Assembly: GCA_022703375.1 (NCBI GenBank)
Contig: JAKLDS010000015.1
Coordinates: 1 to 46,530 of the forward strand
Source of the DNA: Deltaproteobacteria bacterium
Lineage (GTDB): Bacteria > Desulfobacterota > Syntrophia > Syntrophales > Smithellaceae
DNA: 46,530 bases
Direction of reading: 5' to 3'
The notes beneath the pieces were generated by a model that was not told the DNA's origin, ran no database searches, and saw nothing but the letters and a program-made list of their open reading frames with translations. A program made the translations under genes and the position numbers. This document shows positions 1 through 46,530 of the stretch, piece after piece (the first letter of the stretch is position 1; each line of letters opens with the position of its first letter).

Positions 1-806
1 GAGGCATCCGCCAGCAATTCCTTCTGGCGCGAAATCGCGCATTGAATGAGTTTGCCGGCAAAAGAACCCCCGCTGCCTATTATTCTGAGCAGCACACCGG
101 TGAAAAAAGCCAGCGGACTGAGCCGGTTGCCGAATTTCTGTTGCATCAATTCGTTGCCGATTATGCCGATGGCCATAATGCCGTAAATCAATCCTATTAA
201 TTGAATATTCAACCGGGAATCGCCATAGAGAATATGGCTGAACTCGTGAGCTATTACGCCCTGCATCTCTTCGCGGTTAAATCGTTCCAGAGCTCCCCGC
301 GTGACAGCAATTACCGTATCATCGAGGCGCAATCCCGCGGCAAAGGCGTTAATGCATTTTTCATTATCCAGAACATACACCTGCGGAACTACAACGCCTG
401 CGGCTATGGCCATTTCCTCCACTATATTGCGAAGCTGCCGTTCGGCATTATCTATCGTTTTCCAGGAAACAAGACGGCCGCCCAGCATTTCAGCAACAGC
501 CGCTCCACCGCCCTTCAATTCATGCATTTTTATTGCACAGGCTATGAAGATGACTAAACCTACGGCAAGGGAAACAATGATAAAACTTAAGGGCTCCCAG
601 AAAGTAAAGGCCGAAATTTTAGCCTGAAGTTCCTCATTGGTGGGGATATTGGTGGCCAGAGACAGATACCAGAGAAGGCGCACCACACAATAAACGGCAA
701 AAATAATTACCGCCACGGCAGCCAGAAAGAGAATGATTAACTTCCGGCAATTGCCGCGGGCCTCATCCTGCCTGGCAAAAAAATTGGTAGCGCGCCGCTC
801 CTTCAT
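1..806 (-). CDS. M48-family zinc metalloprotease (HtpX-like), C-terminus cut by window edge
   Basis: Membrane-bound zinc endopeptidase of the M48 family. Reading leftward from an ATG at 804-806, the protein has two hydrophobic N-terminal segments (about residues 20-45 and 60-80). The zinc motif HEFSH lies at 234-248, and a Glu in a QKELLADAS context close to base 1 fits the third metal ligand of the family. The rest of the gene lies outside the window. It follows lemA by 14 bases, and LemA/M48 pairs are a common arrangement, so it is probably co-transcribed from the lemA promoter. The ribosome binding site is weak, which suggests translational coupling to lemA. The family call is firm; the substrate is unknown. 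Confidence 0.88.
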   Translation of the reverse strand, partial: MKERRATNFFARQDEARGNCRKLIILFLAAVAVIIFAVYCVVRLLWYLSLATNIPTNEELQAKISAFTFWEPLSFIIVSLAVGLVIFIACAIKMHELKGGGAAVAEMLGGRLVSWKTIDNAERQLRNIVEEMAIAAGVVVPQVYVLDNEKCINAFAAGLRLDDTVIAVTRGALERFNREEMQGVIAHEFSHILYGDSRLNIQLIGLIYGIMAIGIIGNELMQQKFGNRLSPLAFFTGVLLRIIGSGGSFAGKLIQCAISRQKELLADA

Positions 807-38091: not shown

Positions 38092-38110
38092 TGGTAGGCA
38101 TTACCTACTA
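38092..38110. promoter_or_regulatory. 19-bp palindromic operator, copy 1
   Basis: TGGTAGG-CATTA-CCTACTA. The two 7-base arms match as inverted repeats at six of seven positions. The same motif with identical 7-5-7 geometry recurs at 39294-39312. It lies 150 bases before the first gene of the stress cassette. Confidence 0.6.
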
Positions 38111-38259
38111 TTCCCCTTACAATTAATCAGTATTGTTTTCAACTGAAGCTTACATTAGTTTACAGGCAAAAGAAAAATCCCTGTGAACAATGGTTGTGAG
38201 TCGCGTCAACGATGTATGCTTATTACAATAGATACGCCAAATATTTAAAGGAGGTTGAT

Positions 38260-38502
38260 ATGTATGGTGACAGGCAAAAAGATTTGGACAGCGGAGAACT
38301 AAACGGCATTAAGATTCTTAAATATGACAAATGCGGCAGGCTGGCCTCGCTGACAATTTATGCGATTGATAAAGACGAGGAACTGCTGGCCGAGACCAGA
38401 TACGCCTACCGGGAAAACGAAACAAAACCTTATCAAGTAGTCAATTTCTCCATTCCGGAAAATGAAGCGAGGGAAATCATGTTTGAACATTCAGCGGCAT
38501 AA
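38260..38502 (+). CDS. Small protein of unknown function (stress cassette)
   Basis: 80 residues, MYGDRQKDLDSGELNGIKIL at the start, not recognised. It is acidic and predicted alternately beta and alpha, with a single Cys (near residue 25, KYDKCGRL). No signal peptide or membrane segment is present. AAAGGAGG lies five bases before ATG 38260, so the start is secure. It is followed after 21 bases by another small gene and then ferritin, so an iron or redox-stress role is inferred from position only. Confidence 0.8.
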   Translation: MYGDRQKDLDSGELNGIKILKYDKCGRLASLTIYAIDKDEELLAETRYAYRENETKPYQVVNFSIPENEAREIMFEHSAA

Positions 38503-38523
38503 ATTATTAAAGGAGGATTATTT

Positions 38524-38697
38524 ATGAATCAGGAAACAAAAGATCAGGCCTGGCGCAAGATAGAGTCCAATATAGATCAATTAGTATGTAAATTTCTCGG
38601 AGATAATTGCCCTGCGATAGAATACAAAACACGGATCAACGGATTTTTGGAATCTCCGCCGGAATATAACAAACAGGCAGTTGAAGAAGAATCATAA
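38524..38697 (+). CDS. Small protein of unknown function (stress cassette)
   Basis: 57 residues, not recognised. It starts MNQETKDQAWRKIESNIDQL and ends in QAVEEES. It is highly charged and probably two helices, with two cysteines (about residues 22 and 29, in VCKFLGDNCPAIEY). AAAGGAGGA lies about eight bases before the ATG, a strong translation signal for so short a gene. It lies between the 80-aa gene and ferritin in one unit. Confidence 0.75.
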   Translation: MNQETKDQAWRKIESNIDQLVCKFLGDNCPAIEYKTRINGFLESPPEYNKQAVEEES

Positions 38698-38740
38698 ATT
38701 AAGAGCAGGAGAGCCATATCGGAAAGGAAGGTGCAGGCAA

Positions 38741-39277
38741 ATGATGGGGGAAAAAATCAAAAAACACATGAATGAACAGATCAAATATGAGCTGGAATCT
38801 TTCTATATTTATCTGTCGATGGTTGCTTACTTTCATTTGCAGAATCTCGACGGCATGGCTCACTGGCTGCGCTGTCAGGCACATGAAGAAATGATTCATG
38901 CCATGAAATTTTTCGATCACATCATTGACCGGGACGCGACGGTAACTTTACTGGATGTAAAACAACTTAAGACAACCTGGAATAATCTTCTGGAGCCCTG
39001 GCAGGATGCCTATGAGCACGAGAAATTCATCACCGGCAAGATAAACTATCTCACGAAAATATCACGCGAGGAAAATGACTACACCTCCGAGCCGCTTCTT
39101 GCCTGGTTTTTAAATGAACAGATCGAAGAGGAGAAAAACACGGGGAAAATAGCCCGGGAACTGGCCATGGTGGAAAGTTCCCCGGAAGGTATCCTGCTGC
39201 TGGATCGGGAACTGGCCACCCGTTTATTTACCGCCGGCTCTCCGCTTGATCCCTCAGTATACAATCCGGCCGCCTAA
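38741..39277 (+). CDS. Non-heme ferritin
   Basis: 178-residue bacterial ferritin, forming an iron-storage cage that oxidises Fe(II). Counting from ATG 38741, the six ferroxidase ligands fall at E17, E50, H53, E94, Q127 and E130, exactly the numbering of E. coli FtnA, which supports this start. GGAAGG precedes it. The C-terminal tail (about 165-178, TAGSPLDPSVYNPAA) is longer than in FtnA. It belongs to the cassette downstream of the palindromic operator at 38092. Confidence 0.95.
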   Translation: MMGEKIKKHMNEQIKYELESFYIYLSMVAYFHLQNLDGMAHWLRCQAHEEMIHAMKFFDHIIDRDATVTLLDVKQLKTTWNNLLEPWQDAYEHEKFITGKINYLTKISREENDYTSEPLLAWFLNEQIEEEKNTGKIARELAMVESSPEGILLLDRELATRLFTAGSPLDPSVYNPAA

Positions 39278-39293
39278 AAAAATAACGAAACAG

Positions 39294-39312
39294 TGGTAGG
39301 TATTTCCTATCA
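39294..39312. promoter_or_regulatory. 19-bp palindromic operator, copy 2
   Basis: TGGTAGG-TATTT-CCTATCA. It is an inverted repeat with one mismatch, of the same geometry as the copy at 38092-38110. It lies just after the ferritin stop and 80 bases before the UspA gene, so it would control a second transcript. Confidence 0.6.
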
Positions 39313-39391
39313 CTAAACTACATAACAACCCTGATTGTAAATTTATCAATAGGGTATATTTTATATTAAAAAGAAGAAGGAGGATATAATT

Positions 39392-39844
39392 ATGTTTACA
39401 CCAAAAAACATTTTAGTACCGACGGATTTTTCTGTTTATGCAGATAACGCGTTAAAACAGGCTCTCGATCTTGCCAGACAATTCAAAGCAAAAATTCATC
39501 TTTTGCATGTCATTGATGATGGATTTCAGCAATGCGCCATAGATTATTGTTTGGATGAGTCTGTTGTCCAGAAGGTGAACAGCAACAGCATAAAAAGTGC
39601 AAAAGAAAAACTGCACAAGGAAGTTAAAAAAATAACGGACAATCATACCAATGTGGAAATTATTTACGACGTTATCAGAGGGATTCCCTATGAAGAAATC
39701 GTAAAAGAGCAGGAAGATAAAGGAATTGATTTGATTGTTATTGCTTCTCACGGGAAAACGGGCATCTTGAAAAATCTGCTGGGCGGTGTCGTTGATAAAG
39801 TTATTAAAAAAGCCAAATGCCAGGTATTGCTCATCAGAAGCTAA
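39392..39844 (+). CDS. Universal stress protein (UspA family)
   Basis: 150-residue single Usp domain: KNILVPTDFSVYADNALKQA at the N-terminus and IDLIVIASHGKTGILKNLL near the C-terminus. Against the ATP-binding form of the motif (G-2x-G-9x-G-S/T), the first Gly is Ala and the final Ser/Thr is Gly, so nucleotide binding is uncertain. AAGGAGGA precedes the ATG. A copy of the palindromic operator sits 80 bases upstream. It is probably induced with ferritin and the flavodiiron protein. Confidence 0.94.
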   Translation: MFTPKNILVPTDFSVYADNALKQALDLARQFKAKIHLLHVIDDGFQQCAIDYCLDESVVQKVNSNSIKSAKEKLHKEVKKITDNHTNVEIIYDVIRGIPYEEIVKEQEDKGIDLIVIASHGKTGILKNLLGGVVDKVIKKAKCQVLLIRS

Positions 39845-39891: not shown

Positions 39892-40221
39892 GTGAAAAGA
39901 AAATTACTATTGCTTGTTTTGGCAGCCCTACCGCTCTTGACAATGTGTTCGTGGCCTGACGGCCCGATGATGGGCAATTGGGATCGTACGGGAAATTATG
40001 GATGCGGATTCGGATTTGGTTATGGCTACGGAGGAATGTTTATGGGCATTATTTTCTTGCTTGTTCTTGCTGCCGCGATTTATTTTGTCGTGCAGGCCAT
40101 AAGGACAAAGAATGTTGCCGGACGAACGGAGGAAACACCTCTGGATATTATCAAAAAGCGTTATGCCAAAGGCGAACTGACCAAAGAGGATTTTGAGCGA
40201 ATGAAGAATGAATTGCAGTAA
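39892..40221 (+). CDS. SHOCT-domain membrane protein
   Basis: 109 residues from a GTG start, with AAAGGA ten bases upstream. It has an N-terminal hydrophobic signal segment ending in a possible but atypical lipobox (LLTMC). A Gly/Tyr/Met-rich linker (about 25-50) and a transmembrane helix (about 50-72) follow. The C-terminal SHOCT motif (IIKKRYAKGELTKEDFERMK) ends the protein. SHOCT domains are short oligomerisation helices on membrane proteins of varied role. It is directly before the flavodiiron gene, 17 bases away. Confidence 0.88.
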   Translation: MKRKLLLLVLAALPLLTMCSWPDGPMMGNWDRTGNYGCGFGFGYGYGGMFMGIIFLLVLAAAIYFVVQAIRTKNVAGRTEETPLDIIKKRYAKGELTKEDFERMKNELQ

Positions 40222-40238: not shown

Positions 40239-41426
40239 ATGAAATTTGAAATAGCTCCGAATGTTTATTGGGTCGGCAAGATTGATTGGGAACTCCGGAA
40301 ATTCCACGGCGAGGAATATTCAACCCATCGAGGTTCGTCGTATAACTCATATCTTATTAAAGACGATAAAACAGCTCTGATTGACACGGTCTGGCTGCCG
40401 TTTGCCGAAGAGTTTGTTTCCAATCTGGCCCGGGAGATCGACTTTGATAAAATCGATTATGTCATTGCCAATCACGCAGAGATGGATCACTCCGGCGCAC
40501 TGCCGGAGCTTATGCGCCATATTCCTGATAAGCCCATCTACTGCACGGCCAACGCCGTAAAATCTCTTAAAGGCCATTACCATCAGGACTGGAATTTTCA
40601 GGTGGTCAAAACCGGGGACAAACTATCCCTGGGCAAGAAAGACCTGGTTTTCGTCGAAGCAATGATGCTGCACTGGCCTGATTCCATGATGACATATCTC
40701 ACGGGTGACGCGATTTTATTTTCCAATGACGCATTTGGCCAGCATATGGCGAGCGAGCGCCTGTTCAACGATCTGGTGGCGCAATCCGAGCTTTTCGAGG
40801 AGGCAACAAAATATTACGCTAACATCCTCACGCCGTTTTCGCCCCTGGTGACGAAAAAGATCAATGAGGTGATTGCGCTGAATCTGCCGCTTCAAGCCAT
40901 CTGCCCCAGCCATGGTGTCATCTGGCGGGAAAATCCTTTGCAGATTGTGCAGAAATATTTGCAGTGGGCGGCTGATTATCAGGAAAATCAGATCACCATT
41001 ATTTACGACACCATGTGGAACGGCACGAGGATACTGGCCGAGAATATTGCCAGGGGCATCGTGCAGAAAGATGACAAGGTAACGGTTAAGCTCTACAACA
41101 TCGCCCGCAGTGATATCAACGATTTGGTCACTGAAGTATTCAAGTCCAAAGCAATTTTGCTGGGCTCCCCGACAATTAACAAGGGTATTCTCAGTGCCAT
41201 GGCGGCACTTCTGGAAATGATCACCGGACTCAAGTTTAAAAACAAAAAAGCCGCGGCGTTCGGTTGCTACGGCTGGAGCGGTGAAAGCGTCAGGATTTTA
41301 GCGGATCAGCTGACCAAAGCCGGTTTTGCAATCGCAGGCGAAGGCCTGAAAGCCGTGTGGCAACCCAACGACGAAGCGCTGGCCCAGGCTTTTGAATTTG
41401 GAAAAGAATTTGCGGGAAAAGTTTAG
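40239..41426 (+). CDS. Flavodiiron protein (O2/NO reductase, FprA/ROO family)
   Basis: 395 residues. An N-terminal metallo-beta-lactamase domain with a complete diiron site (H79, E81, D83, H145, D164, H225) is fused to a C-terminal flavodoxin domain (IIYDTMWNGTRILAENIARG; ASPTINKG-like loop). The ligand pattern matches rubredoxin:oxygen oxidoreductase of Desulfovibrio almost position for position. It reduces O2 to water or NO to N2O using rubredoxin or another donor, which is not encoded here. AGGAGG precedes the ATG. It is the last gene of the stress cassette. Confidence 0.96.
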   Translation: MKFEIAPNVYWVGKIDWELRKFHGEEYSTHRGSSYNSYLIKDDKTALIDTVWLPFAEEFVSNLAREIDFDKIDYVIANHAEMDHSGALPELMRHIPDKPIYCTANAVKSLKGHYHQDWNFQVVKTGDKLSLGKKDLVFVEAMMLHWPDSMMTYLTGDAILFSNDAFGQHMASERLFNDLVAQSELFEEATKYYANILTPFSPLVTKKINEVIALNLPLQAICPSHGVIWRENPLQIVQKYLQWAADYQENQITIIYDTMWNGTRILAENIARGIVQKDDKVTVKLYNIARSDINDLVTEVFKSKAILLGSPTINKGILSAMAALLEMITGLKFKNKKAAAFGCYGWSGESVRILADQLTKAGFAIAGEGLKAVWQPNDEALAQAFEFGKEFAGKV

Positions 41427-41625: not shown

Positions 41626-41675
41626 GGACAAACAAACAATATCTTTTTAATGAAGTAAAAGAAAGCAAATTGGCA

Positions 41676-43898
41676 ATGAGCAATCCTTTGCCCCCCCATA
41701 TCAAAAATAATCTTTTTATTACCATTGTAATATTTATCGCCGCTTCCGTTCTGGTCGCTATTATTGGCTACAATTTTTATCAAAATCAGAAGAAATATAT
41801 CAGTGCCAGCTCCCAGAAGCAGCTGATGGCCATTGCCGATTTGCAAGTCCGGGAAATAAGCAATTGGCGAAATGAACGTATCGGTGATGCTCAGGTAATA
41901 ATAAATAATGATGTTTTCACGAAGAGCACAATTAAATATCTTAATGATCCATCGGCCTCTGAAGCGAAAAATATTATTTTGTCATCGCTCAAAGCAACAC
42001 AAAAATCATATCAGTACAAAAATATTTTGCTGTTAGATAGAAACAAAAAAGTCAGATTAGCTCTTCATAAATTTGTTGCTGATTATAGTTTGATTCATTC
42101 CAGTGTTATTGATGAAGCTATAAAAAAGAGGGGCATCGTCTTCGGAGATTTTTACAGGGAAAACAAGAATGGCTCTGTTTATTTGACAATGGCTTTCCCC
42201 ATTATAAATGCACTGGGGAAAAATGCGCCGATAATCGGCACTATAGTAATTGTCCTTGACCCCACTTTACGCCTATATCCGTCAATTAAAGAATGGCCGC
42301 TGCCCACCTCGACGGGTGAAACGCTTTTAGTACGTCGTGAAAGCAATGAAATCGTTTATCTTAATGAATTGCGTCATGATAAAAACAAGCCGCTGACGAT
42401 CAGGCTGCCGCTTAGCGAAGCCGATCTGCCGGCAGTTAAGGCTGTCCTGGGGCAAAAAGGGATTGTGGAGGGGCGGGATTACCGGAAAAAAAATGTTTTG
42501 GCGGCAATCGGATCGGTACCGGATTCTCCATGGTTTTTTGTTGTCAAAATTGATGGCGAAGAAATATATGCTTCGCTGCGTTTACGTTACTGGGTAACTC
42601 TTTCATTTGTCGTGATCGGCATACTGATATTCGGTATCATTGTCGCTTACATCTGGCGCGATCAACAGGCCAGATTTTACCGCAAGCAATATGAAACCGA
42701 GTATAAAAGAGCTTTTTTATACGCGCGCGGCCTTATCGAAACCAGCCTCGATCCTTTGGTCACAATCAGTGCCGAAGGAAAAATCATGGATGTCAACAAG
42801 TCAACGGAACTGGTTACGGGCTTATCCAGAGAAAAGCTGATCGGCAGCCGCTTTTCCGATTATTTCACTGAACCGGAAAAAGCCGCAGGGGGATACAAAC
42901 TGGCCTTTGAAAAAGGTCTTATCCGCGATTATCCTCTGTCCATAAGGAATATTTCCGGCCAGGCAACAGATGTTTTATACAATGCATCGGTATACAAAAA
43001 TGAAAGCGGCGAAGTTCAGGGTATATTTGCGGCAGCCCGCGATATTACCGAATTGAAACGAATAGAAAAAGAGTTAAAGAAGGCTCATGATGAATTGGAA
43101 TTGCGCGTGGAAGAAAGAACAAATGAATTGCAGAAAACCAACGAATATCTACAGGAGGAAATCAGAGAAAGGAAAGTAGCCGAAAAACTGATTGATTTGA
43201 GAACACGGCTTTTGGAGGAAACAAATAAAGAGCTGGAAAGTTTCAGCTATTCCGTTTCGCACGATCTGCGCGCGCCCCTGCGGGCTGTTGACGGCTATGC
43301 CCGAATGATTCTGCGCGATCAGGCCGATAAGCTTGATCACGACGCCCGACGTAAATTTGAATTGATCAGAAGCAATACCCAAATGATGGGCAAGTTAATT
43401 GACGATTTGCTTTCGTTTTCCCGGCTGGGTCGCATGGAAATCAATATGACCAGGCTGGATATGGAAGGGCTGATCAACGATGTATGGAAGGAATTACAGA
43501 TCATTAATCCGGAGCGCAAACTTGATCTTAATATTACAAATGTACCCGCCGGCAACGGCGACCGCACATTAATCAAGCAGGTATATTCCAATCTTTTTTC
43601 CAATGCCGTCAAGTTTACGAAAAACAGAAAAAACACCAGTATCGAAACCGGCGGATATGTTAAAGGCCAGGAAAATATATATTATGTAAAAGATAATGGT
43701 GTTGGTTTTGACATGGATTACTATGACAAATTGTTCGGCGTTTTTCAGCGCCTGCACAGCGCAGACGAATTTGAAGGAACGGGCGTCGGTTTGGCTATCG
43801 TGCAGCGCATTATTCACAAGCATGGCGGCCGGGTTTGGGCTGAAGGAAAGGCTGAAGAAGGAGCAACTTTCTATTTCACATTATCGAGGAAGGATTAA
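41676..43898 (+). CDS. Membrane sensor histidine kinase (Cache-like, PAS, bacteriophytochrome-type kinase core)
   Basis: About 740 residues. TM1 (about 10-32) is followed by an extracytoplasmic sensor (about 40-300) with Cache-like features (QYKNILLLDRNKKVRLALHK, then GDFYRENKNGSVYLTMAFPI). TM2 (about 308-328) leads to one PAS domain (LETSLDPLVTISAEG), a coiled coil, HisKA with H529 (SYSVSHDLRAPLRAVDG) and a HATPase domain (GTGVGLAIVQRIIHKHGG). The HisKA type is the one usually paired with Rcp1-like regulators, and such a gene follows eight bases downstream. ATG 41676 is used; TTG 41670 is an alternative. Confidence 0.93.
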   Translation: MSNPLPPHIKNNLFITIVIFIAASVLVAIIGYNFYQNQKKYISASSQKQLMAIADLQVREISNWRNERIGDAQVIINNDVFTKSTIKYLNDPSASEAKNIILSSLKATQKSYQYKNILLLDRNKKVRLALHKFVADYSLIHSSVIDEAIKKRGIVFGDFYRENKNGSVYLTMAFPIINALGKNAPIIGTIVIVLDPTLRLYPSIKEWPLPTSTGETLLVRRESNEIVYLNELRHDKNKPLTIRLPLSEADLPAVKAVLGQKGIVEGRDYRKKNVLAAIGSVPDSPWFFVVKIDGEEIYASLRLRYWVTLSFVVIGILIFGIIVAYIWRDQQARFYRKQYETEYKRAFLYARGLIETSLDPLVTISAEGKIMDVNKSTELVTGLSREKLIGSRFSDYFTEPEKAAGGYKLAFEKGLIRDYPLSIRNISGQATDVLYNASVYKNESGEVQGIFAAARDITELKRIEKELKKAHDELELRVEERTNELQKTNEYLQEEIRERKVAEKLIDLRTRLLEETNKELESFSYSVSHDLRAPLRAVDGYARMILRDQADKLDHDARRKFELIRSNTQMMGKLIDDLLSFSRLGRMEINMTRLDMEGLINDVWKELQIINPERKLDLNITNVPAGNGDRTLIKQVYSNLFSNAVKFTKNRKNTSIETGGYVKGQENIYYVKDNGVGFDMDYYDKLFGVFQRLHSADEFEGTGVGLAIVQRIIHKHGGRVWAEGKAEEGATFYFTLSRKD

Positions 43899-43905
43899 AC
43901 GAAAA

Positions 43906-44340
43906 ATGGATGGCCTGGATGTGGTAATCGTCGAAGATAACCGTAACGATGTGGAGATGATTCTGGATGCTCTTCAGGATGCAAAAATCAATATCCGCTC
44001 ACAGATACTTAAAGACGGAGCGGAAGCCGTGGACTATTTTTTTAATCCGGCAAAAGAATTTGTCAGGGAAAAACATCAGCCGCCGCGGCTGGTGATGCTG
44101 GATTTAAAACTTCCGAAGATTAACGGTCTGGAAGTTTTAAAAAAGCTTAAATCCAGTGAAAGCACGAAAGATATTCCCGTGGTTGTTTTTACATCGTCTA
44201 ATGAAGTGCGCGACAGGATGCAAAGTTATGCTCTGGGAGTCAACAGTTATCTCCTCAAGCCTTCCGATGCCGATGAGTTCGCCAGATACATTGAGCGAAT
44301 AATGGAATATTGGGTTATAATGAATGTGAAAGCCAGGTAA
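43906..44340 (+). CDS. Single-domain response regulator (Rcp1-like)
   Basis: 144 residues, receiver domain only. Acidic pocket VVIVEDNRNDVEM at the N-terminus, phospho-acceptor D66 in VMLDLKLPKINGLEV, then VVFTSSNE and the switch lysine in LLKPSDADEF. The insertion AVDYFFNPAKEFVREKHQPP before the phospho-Asp strand is characteristic of Rcp1-type regulators. GAGGAAGGA precedes ATG 43906. It follows its probable kinase by eight bases; with no output domain it may relay phosphate to another protein. Confidence 0.94.
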   Translation: MDGLDVVIVEDNRNDVEMILDALQDAKINIRSQILKDGAEAVDYFFNPAKEFVREKHQPPRLVMLDLKLPKINGLEVLKKLKSSESTKDIPVVVFTSSNEVRDRMQSYALGVNSYLLKPSDADEFARYIERIMEYWVIMNVKAR

Positions 44341-44396: not shown

Positions 44397-45254
44397 ATGA
44401 AAAGTAACTTGCGTATCTTGATTTTAGAAGACGTGCCGGCGGATGCCGAGTTAATGGAAGATGAATTAAAGCAGTCTGGATTTAATTATGAGGCCAGGCG
44501 GGTTGCCGGCAGGGCTGCGTTTATAAAAGAACTGGCGGAATTTTCACCGGATTTGATTCTGGCCGATTACTCTCTGCCCGGTTTTGATGGCCGGTCGGCT
44601 TTGAATATTATCCGCGAGAAATATCCCGATATACCCTTTATTTTTGTTTCCGGAGCGTTAGGCGAGGAACTGGCGATTGAATTATTGAAAAAAGGGGCAA
44701 CTGATTATGTTCTGAAAAACAGACTCTTCCGGCTTGCTCCCGCTGTAAAGCGGGCGCTCGCCGAAACGGCCGAACACCAGGAGCGGAAAAGAGCGGAAAA
44801 TGAGCTGCGGCAAAAATCAAAGAGTCTGGAAGAAGCAAACATCGCCCTGAAAGTGCTGCTGCAACACCGGGATGAAGACAGAAAGGCAATTGAAGAAAAG
44901 ATTATAACCAATGTGAAAAAGCTCGCGCTGCCCTATATCGAAAAATTGAAAACACTCAAATTAAACGAAAATCAATTGGCTTATGTCCGGATAATAGAAG
45001 ATCATCTTAATGATATCATCTCGCCATTTTTACGCAATCTGACAATGGATCATCTGGATTTCACACCGCGGGAGATTCAAATTACCGCACTGGTTAAAGA
45101 GGGCAAAACGACAAAGGACATTACCGAGCTTCTCAACATATCGGCGACCGCCGTTGATTTTCACCGGAAAAATATCCGGCAGAAACTCGGCATCAAAAAC
45201 GAAAAGACCAATTTGCGCTCTTATCTGCTTTCGCTGCCGGCAAAAAATGATTAA
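44397..45254 (+). CDS. Response regulator: receiver, coiled coil and LuxR-type HTH
   Basis: 285 residues. The receiver (about 6-125) has EDVPADAELM and phospho-acceptor D57 in ILADYSLPGFDG. A long helical linker (about 130-220) joins it to a LuxR/GerE-type HTH (about 222-275: FTPREIQITALVKEGKTTKD, then ISATAVDFHRKNIRQKLGI). The HTH resembles those of PAS-LuxR proteins in deltaproteobacteria. Its position after the kinase and Rcp1-like gene suggests one pathway, with this protein as the DNA-binding output. It converges with the AOR gene, two bases apart. Confidence 0.93.
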   Translation: MKSNLRILILEDVPADAELMEDELKQSGFNYEARRVAGRAAFIKELAEFSPDLILADYSLPGFDGRSALNIIREKYPDIPFIFVSGALGEELAIELLKKGATDYVLKNRLFRLAPAVKRALAETAEHQERKRAENELRQKSKSLEEANIALKVLLQHRDEDRKAIEEKIITNVKKLALPYIEKLKTLKLNENQLAYVRIIEDHLNDIISPFLRNLTMDHLDFTPREIQITALVKEGKTTKDITELLNISATAVDFHRKNIRQKLGIKNEKTNLRSYLLSLPAKND

Positions 45255-45256
45255 CA

Positions 45257-46530
45257 TCACTTCCGGATTTCCCGGGGCAAGGAATTACAATCGCACACCG
45301 CTGCTTTTTTTTGCGCCGCCGGAGCACTCAGCGTCAGCGCCGCAATTGCCGCCCGGGCATCGTCATTGAGAAAATCCCACAGACCGATTTGCTTTAAGGT
45401 TTCTGCTTTGGGAATGCCCGAAGAATTCCAGCCTCTTTCTTCATAATAAACGGCGATTAATTTTTTGAGTTCATCTTTCCGGTAATTCATCAAAACTTCG
45501 CGTTTTGTTTCCGTCGATAATGACTGAAATTCTTCCGGCGTCAGTTTTGTTATTCTGGTTACTTCCTGATCATTGAAATCCCGCTCGGCATTGTAAAGTT
45601 CATCATCGGTGGGGGCTATGGCACGATCGGGAATCCAGTCCTGTGCCGCCGTTTCCCGGCCGAGTATCAGAACGTTCATCACCCGCTGCAAGTTGATGTC
45701 CCGGTCAGTCTGCGCAAAAATCTCTTCCCAGGTCATGGATGTGCCCAGTACGGCATTATAAAAATCGGCGTAAAGCTCCTGAGAAGCTGGATTGATGTAG
45801 ATATCCGTATCGCGGCGTTTTTCCGAATCGGGATTGAACACATCCACCCAGGGCAGCTTGCACAAACCGAGATTGTCGTTTCCCAGACGCACGCGCGGAT
45901 AGGTCATCAGCGCCCGGGCGCGCGTCTCAAAAGTCGAAAAAGCTCCCAGCAAATCCACCTTGATGAGCCAGGCGGCGGCGTGGTGCGCTCCAATATCGCT
46001 GGCCGCTGCGTAGGAAGCCTGCATGGAAAGAGAACGGTGCGTCCGGTACAGCGAAAAAGGCAAGCCCTTGACCTGCATGGCAAAACGCCGCAGTTCTTTT
46101 AAAGGTTCCGGCTTTCCAGTGCGCCGGGAGTAACGGGCGGCCACCCAATCCGTCAACTCCAGCATACCCCGGCTGGTCACTGCCGCCAGGGGCGTCGCCT
46201 GCCGGGCAATCTGATGGATGAAAGTCAGTGCAGCTTCTTCATTCCCCCAGTTAAGCATAAAGCCTTCCGTATCATCTTTGACCAGATATCCACGCTGATA
46301 ACATTCCATCAGAAAAGCCATGATTACCGCCGTGGTTATCGTGTCCATGCCGTAATTGTCGCAATGCCAGTTGGCTTCCATAATGAATTCCGGATTCCAG
46401 ATTCCGAGGTTCGAGCCAAAACCGGCGGCAGTTTCATATTCCGGTCCGTCCACCCATACCTTCCGCCCCTTGTGCTCGCCATTAGTCAGCGTCACCCAAC
46501 CGCCTTTGGTGCAGCGCAGGTTGCAGCCGG
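45257..46530 (-). CDS. Aldehyde:ferredoxin oxidoreductase family protein, N-terminus cut by window edge
   Basis: C-terminal about 424 residues of a tungsten/molybdenum-bis-pterin enzyme. The frame is open to the window edge and its first residues, GCNLRCTKGGW, hold cysteines of the [4Fe-4S] site. The distal cluster Cys is probably in NDNLGLCKLPW. Other family features are NYGMDTITTA and a His pair in GAHHAAAWLIKVD. The family covers aldehyde oxidation to acids with ferredoxin and also BamB-type benzoyl-CoA reductase subunits; this one cannot be assigned. A tail of about 60 residues ends with a Cys pair (AVCDCNS). Confidence 0.9.
   Translation of the reverse strand, partial: GCNLRCTKGGWVTLTNGEHKGRKVWVDGPEYETAAGFGSNLGIWNPEFIMEANWHCDNYGMDTITTAVIMAFLMECYQRGYLVKDDTEGFMLNWGNEEAALTFIHQIARQATPLAAVTSRGMLELTDWVAARYSRRTGKPEPLKELRRFAMQVKGLPFSLYRTHRSLSMQASYAAASDIGAHHAAAWLIKVDLLGAFSTFETRARALMTYPRVRLGNDNLGLCKLPWVDVFNPDSEKRRDTDIYINPASQELYADFYNAVLGTSMTWEEIFAQTDRDINLQRVMNVLILGRETAAQDWIPDRAIAPTDDELYNAERDFNDQEVTRITKLTPEEFQSLSTETKREVLMNYRKDELKKLIAVYYEERGWNSSGIPKAETLKQIGLWDFLNDDARAAIAALTLSAPAAQKKAAVCDCNSLPREIRK

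Follow-up and report, generated by a model that had tools for sequence, protein, structure and literature searches.

Little is known of how syntrophs, strict anaerobes that are mostly uncultured, detect oxygen and survive it. In mycobacteria, DosR/DevR governs a dormancy regulon under oxygen change, with many universal stress protein (Usp) genes and redox or iron proteins among its members. Activators of the NarL family, such as those of the FixLJ and UhpA type, work from a strong upstream site and a weaker proximal site, and the core bound by NreC is TAGGG..CCCTA, which resembles the TAGG..CCTA of the sites described here. In other anaerobes, ferritin, flavodiiron or rubrerythrin genes are regulated by PerR, Fur, Rex, HcpR, NsrR and IscR, whose consensus sequences are not known to match the operator presented here. 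In the oxygen-responsive NreBC system of staphylococci, the NarL-type regulator NreC recognizes a palindromic region rich in GC, and oxygen is detected by a 4Fe-4S cluster in its partner NreB (PMC8139620). DosRS of M. abscessus is an example of the DosR type (PMC10034137).

We analyzed a stretch of 46,530 nucleotides from a genome of the family Smithellaceae, hereafter the window, in which an initial annotation had reported two matching palindromes flanking an oxygen and iron stress cassette. Both were found on the + strand exactly as claimed, TGGTAGG-CATTA-CCTACTA at 38092-38110 and TGGTAGG-TATTT-CCTATCA at 39294-39312, and the window contained no other sequence within 2 mismatches of TGGTAGG-N5-CCTAYYA. 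At 0-1 mismatch these two were also the only copies in the whole 2.57-Mb genome. Rather than being scattered at random density, the motif occurs twice, both times in this oxygen/iron cassette. The two sites do lie beside cassette genes, but the image of palindromes flanking a single cassette had to be redrawn, as each heads its own transcription unit.

The first palindrome lies upstream of three genes, all on the + strand. An 80-aa protein with a good ribosome-binding site (38260-38502) comes first; it had no Pfam or NCBIfam match and no homologue in the compared loci. The 57-aa protein that follows (38524-38697) belongs to an unannotated family that recurs downstream of sites in 12 genomes, in some cases with several copies per genome, and is likely a new small stress protein. 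It had no match in a Pfam search, which also gave no support to the idea that it is a CsbD relative. The last gene of the unit encodes a ferritin of the non-heme type (38741-39277; PF00210, E 3e-30). The second palindrome precedes, again on the + strand, genes for a Usp (39392-39844; PF00582, E 8e-30), a membrane protein with a C-terminal SHOCT domain (39892-40221; PF09851, E 2e-8) and a flavodiiron protein with metallo-beta-lactamase-like and flavodoxin domains (40239-41426; PF19583 and PF00258, with NCBIfam NF008887 above cut-off). The nearest orthologues of this flavodiiron protein (L046-L058, 76-88% identity) are in loci that have neither the cassette nor any site, which limited their use to negative controls and excluded them as phylogenetic footprints. 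Orthologues inside the regulon (L132 and L133) showed 72% identity to the window's protein, and the window's flavodiiron gene may have been swapped in locally.

After a gap of 244 bp, the flavodiiron gene is followed on the same strand by genes for a kinase, a receiver and a regulator. This two-component set had been absent from the initial finding. A domain search showed the histidine kinase (41670-43898, + strand), the presumed partner of the regulator, to have two predicted membrane spans, a periplasmic Cache-like region, and PAS, HisKA and HATPase domains; the same search gave no match to a GAF domain. The kinase contains no cysteine, its orthologues contain 0-3 scattered ones, and the PAS domain (residues 353-464) contains neither histidine nor cysteine. 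The kinase is therefore unlikely to sense through a 4Fe-4S cluster, thiols or a FixL-type haem, and the signal is more likely a periplasmic ligand or one read by another type of PAS cofactor. The single-domain receiver, an Rcp1-like response regulator (43762-44340, + strand; PF00072, E 3e-17), probably has its true start near 43906.

The regulator (44397-45254, + strand), whose gene lies 5-6 kb downstream of the palindromes, is the candidate operator binder. Its receiver domain (PF00072, residues 7-108) has the phospho-acceptor Asp and contains DLILADYSLPGFDG and GATDYVLK, and its C-terminal GerE/LuxR helix-turn-helix (PF00196, residues 222-269, E 3e-13) matches the EsrB, SdiA and GerE structures by sequence. 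A cognate kinase lies alongside, and kinase and receiver are neighbours of the regulator in L130, L133, L134 and L136 as well. On these sequence features the regulator is a member of the NarL/FixJ family. Several of its orthologues (L130:15076-16353, L144:120-1376 and others) are about 427-441 aa long against 285 aa in the window, with the same operator; the extra length is an insertion between the receiver and the helix-turn-helix, which in L130 is a PAS domain.

Among the described systems, the locus resembles DosR/DevR in function, with a NarL-type regulator, palindromic sites upstream of and near the -35 box, and Usp genes and redox or iron proteins as targets. The DosR kinases DosS and DosT, however, are haem-GAF proteins, unlike the membrane kinase here, and DosR hosts belong to a different bacterial phylum; the hosts here are strict anaerobes. 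The consensus of the sites does not fit the known DosR 20-bp box. The locus also resembles NreBC in its NarL-type regulator and palindromic site, but it shares neither the PAS cysteines that would hold an NreB-type 4Fe-4S cluster nor the targets, which are nitrate respiration in that system and defence and storage in this one. The likeness to FixLJ and UhpA is one of layout, with a strong site upstream and a weak site beside the -35 box, but FixL uses a haem-PAS whose proximal histidine has no counterpart here, and the target genes and signals of both systems are other than those of this locus.

Palindromy by itself proved unremarkable because the same 7-5-7 shape, with 6 or more of the 7 arm positions paired, occurred at 103 places in the window, and we dropped it as evidence for an operator. 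Counting the degenerate 19-mer genome-wide gave no excess over a reversed-pattern control, and since the number of matches equaled that of the control, such counting alone was uninformative. With the shape common and the 19-mer not over-represented, the sequence alone was unable to settle the operator claim. What raises the putative operator pair above chance is its conservation. With a 50-bp profile (weight matrix) built from other genomes, leaving out the sites of the window's own genome, the two sites scored 63.2 and 43.1 bits; the next best position in the window scored -4.7, and the maximum in 20 Mb of Markov sequence was 17.0 bits. A profile that contained both window sites among its 42 found only these two in the whole genome, with E values of 5e-12 for site 1 and 3e-8 for site 2. 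The regulon in this genome appears to be these two units, as judged by a profile search that weak or diverged sites could escape.

We aligned 28 sites by their palindromes and found a second conserved region, CYTACNATNAATCNNTATTGT, at a fixed distance of 5-6 nt downstream; the consensus was TRGTAGGYAWTRCCTACYA plus this downstream element. In the window, the element reads CTTACAA at promoter 1 (38116-38122, + strand), against a consensus of CYTACCA and with the same fixed spacing as in the aligned promoters, and ACTACAT at promoter 2 (39317-39323, + strand), a position conserved in the Usp promoters of other genomes. We infer that this CYTACCA-like, half-site-like element is a second binding site. 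Beyond it, of 44 palindromes from regulator-positive genomes, 39 were followed by ATTG at +22..25, against 1 of 17 elsewhere (Fisher 1.5e-9), although the palindrome had been the only criterion for choosing the sites. This position corresponds to the predicted -35 box TTGTTT at promoter 1 (38133-38138, + strand) and, at the fixed offset seen in the aligned promoters, to TTGTAA at promoter 2 (39335-39340, + strand). The predicted -10 boxes are TAGTTT (38156-38161, + strand), after a 17-bp spacer, and TATTTT (39357-39362, + strand), after a 16-bp spacer. Among 109 aligned promoters, TAnnnT followed TTG at 17 bp in 53% and at 16 bp in 17%, compared with 0-8% at most other spacings. These promoters thus have the form of sigma-70 promoters, TTGTNN as -35 and TANTTT as -10, mostly 17 bp apart.

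On this alignment, the operator is the upstream half of a predicted rigid composite promoter made up of palindrome, half-site region, -35 box, a spacer of 16-17 bp and -10 box. The predicted +1 lies about 67 bp past the palindrome centre, which puts the centre at about -67 and the CYTACCA-like half-site near -50. The 19-bp palindromes that had drawn attention to the locus are real, but the functional unit measures about 70 bp and not 19. A start codon lay no more than 300 bp ahead of the composite in 80% of sites; looking the opposite way, the share was 30%. Of 111 composite sites, 104 avoided overlap with long ORFs. A simple promoter and terminator scanner gave no excess over shuffled sequence, and both window promoters were absent from its list. 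Two other readings of the promoter were rejected. By inspection, TGGTAGG as part of a sigma-54 -24/-12 promoter lacks the GC at -12 and has sigma-70 -35 and -10 boxes downstream, and TATTGT as a -10 box, which would place the palindrome at -41.5, was ruled out by the TANTTT hexamer 17 bp beyond TTG.

In a search of 59 related genomes, near-perfect copies of the palindrome were concentrated in few genomes. They stood upstream of the unit of 57-aa gene plus ferritin and of orthologous Usp genes, and the kinase, receiver and regulator genes turned up again at these loci. In many genomes the motif has been kept ahead of orthologous ferritin and Usp units and ahead of other oxygen-defence genes. 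Among the targets unrelated to those of the window were a WrbA-like flavodoxin, a desulfoferrodoxin-type superoxide reductase, an island with MsrAB and Fe-SOD, a YgaP-like membrane protein and a phasin-like protein. The composite was identical in kind before such non-homologous targets, both within and between genomes. The loci we read contained 139 distinct composites of more than 15 bits, spread over 29 genomes; relatives carry up to 16-25 matches per genome. The genes recurring in first or second place were, besides the 57-aa family, those for Usp and the WrbA-like protein (11 genomes each), a small secreted protein in which ATAPKSV follows the signal peptide and a GYGYG-rich periplasmic protein (6 genomes each), SHOCT proteins (4 genomes), and ferritin and ferritin-like proteins (7 in two clusters). 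Superoxide reductase, a RibD-like reductase, and BON and CsbD proteins were also among them. In G049 and G087 (L138, L241 and L314) the composite stands before a short secreted family beginning MRKLAIGIVVV..., which had no Pfam match and lies off the oxygen-defence theme.

Alongside oxygen and iron defence, the targets include proteins of general stress (Usp, CsbD and BON), and the list speaks for oxygen and iron stress as the probable occasion for the regulon. The initial annotation had suggested that the motif may mark an undescribed redox regulon. Conserved sites support the regulon, while the word redox fits the targets and, as a name for the signal, goes further than they do; no known oxygen-sensing feature was shown in the kinase. 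Searches of the open literature on this regulon in these bacteria and on D. vulgaris regulators found no description, and we provisionally regard a regulon with this operator as undescribed so far.

The regulator at 44397-45254 is most likely the protein that reads the palindromes, and we name it because of its linkage, its co-occurrence with the sites and the correlation between its helix and the sites. Receiver- or PAS-linked LuxR proteins form a large family in these bacteria, so the mere presence of a relative means little. Regulators from site-bearing genomes carry the helix AVDFHRKN, whereas FHRDN or FHRNN is found in the paralogues of site-poor ones. The codons of the recognition-helix signature V-D-F-H-R-K-N, at 45153-45173 on the + strand of the window, are diagnostic for composite-bearing genomes. 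A DNA-pattern search found V(D/N)FHRKN in 21 of 155 genomes of the class. At E <= 1e-5, the composite was present in 21 of 21 signature genomes versus 5 of 134 others (p 1.4e-21), in 6 of 6 held-out signature genomes that had no sequence in the profile (p 5e-8), and in step with the signature inside the window's own family alone (p 2e-8), all of these p-values being optimistic because the genomes are related and not fully independent. We had also considered the full-length kinase as a marker of the regulon. Its orthologues are confined to 8 genomes of the class, each of which has the composite, and the regulator helix tracks the sites better.

Beyond the class, among 379 genomes of the phylum, the signature occurred in 3; the composite was present in 2 of these 3 versus 7 of 376 without the signature. 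Both composites in signature genomes lay at the stop codon of the regulator gene itself, and the remaining signature genome, G229, had no site. The seven genomes without the exact signature had weak composite matches. Within the class, the composite without the exact helix signature was found in G033, G012, G092, G127 and, weakly, G057; three of these five genomes are 71-82% complete. In one family whose paralogous helix is FHRDN (G039, G057 and G096-G098), the composite matched weakly at one or two sites, perhaps as the variant operator of a sister regulator. In many families, distant ones among them (e.g. L354, L355, L331, L357 and L358), the composite lies against the regulator's stop codon or overlaps it; the TAG stop often forms the first bases of the palindrome, and the site there faces the next gene. 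The 3' end of the regulator gene in the window has no site.

Comparison of genomes shows the predicted composite architecture, its conservation at orthologous and unrelated targets, and its co-occurrence with the helix. We consider it highly probable that the palindromes are operators of the phosphorylated NarL/FixJ regulator 44397-45254, which would activate both units through sigma-70 polymerase. In this scheme, the adjacent membrane kinase 41670-43898 would phosphorylate the regulator, the signal being presumably oxygen or its products. A regulator dimer would then occupy the palindrome, the high-affinity operator, at about -67, while either another dimer or a further contact would take up the weaker CYTACCA-like element at about -50, beside the weak -35 box. 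The bound regulator would recruit sigma-70 RNA polymerase, probably for activation rather than repression, and so switch on the two small proteins and ferritin from unit 1 and the Usp, the SHOCT protein and the flavodiiron oxygen/NO reductase from unit 2. Readthrough from the Usp promoter into the kinase and regulator genes might provide positive feedback.

A different DNA-binding protein might read the composite, with the regulator merely sharing its neighbourhood and evolutionary fate. Co-occurrence does not equal binding, a few genomes have the composite without the signature helix, and the regulator is not beside a site in every genome. We judge this improbable, as the association follows the recognition helix and not the gene family, FHRDN and FHRNN paralogues being common in site-free genomes; the helix, unlike the full-length kinase, follows the sites over several families, and in distant families sites lie against the stop codon of the regulator. 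The TAGG..CCTA inverted repeat also suits LuxR-type helix-turn-helix sites. Somewhat less improbable, but still unlikely, is that this regulator binds and represses, or acts both ways, with relief under stress. The direction of control is unreadable from sequence and NarL-family regulators can both activate and repress; however, sites upstream of the -35 box, with the second element near -50, are in the usual position for an activator, and the -35 boxes are weak (TTGTNN).

Much less probable than either is that the palindrome is a structural element of RNA or DNA, such as a terminator hairpin, a small mobile repeat or a recombination site. A 7-bp hairpin with a 5-nt loop could form, and in other genomes the palindrome is found at the 3' end of a gene. 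On the other hand, no T-run follows the palindrome, and its place upstream of the -35 box puts it outside the transcript of its own promoter. There are just two copies in the genome, and the aligned sites prefer an orientation toward a gene and keep a fixed spacing to the -35 and -10 boxes; spacer and flank differ between the copies, so they are not recent transpositions. Coincidence, that is, two similar palindromes arising by chance in AT-rich intergenic DNA, would be in keeping with the abundance of near-palindromes of this shape in the window and with a genome-wide 19-mer count no higher than the control, but has next to no probability left and is refuted by the leave-genome-out scores, which were 63 and 43 bits where 20 Mb of null sequence gave 17 at most. 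Activation by the NarL/FixJ regulator stands as the preferred reading.

By family the system is ordinary; its regulon appears new, its operator well defined and its candidate regulator strong. On balance we lean toward a wider reading, in which this would be a DosR-like master switch for oxygen survival in strictly anaerobic syntrophs: an undescribed two-component system and regulon in several families of the class and scattered genomes of the phylum. It would bring with it a new operator class, V(D/N)FHRKN as a subfamily of recognition helices, the unusual but conserved positioning of one operator over the stop codon of the regulator gene itself, and a new family of 57-aa stress proteins. With an operator, a promoter layout, a likely transcription factor and a target list in hand, the question becomes testable with one protein and short DNA. 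The signature ties a recognition helix to a DNA motif within the large, mostly uncharacterized group of PAS- or receiver-linked LuxR regulators, the search model can predict targets in any related genome, and the regulon marks out small-protein families without annotation as stress genes. Beyond the regulator gene, on the - strand at 45257-46530, lies a convergent ORF that is truncated by the end of the contig and spans at least 423 aa; by eye it looks like a fragment of an aldehyde ferredoxin oxidoreductase.
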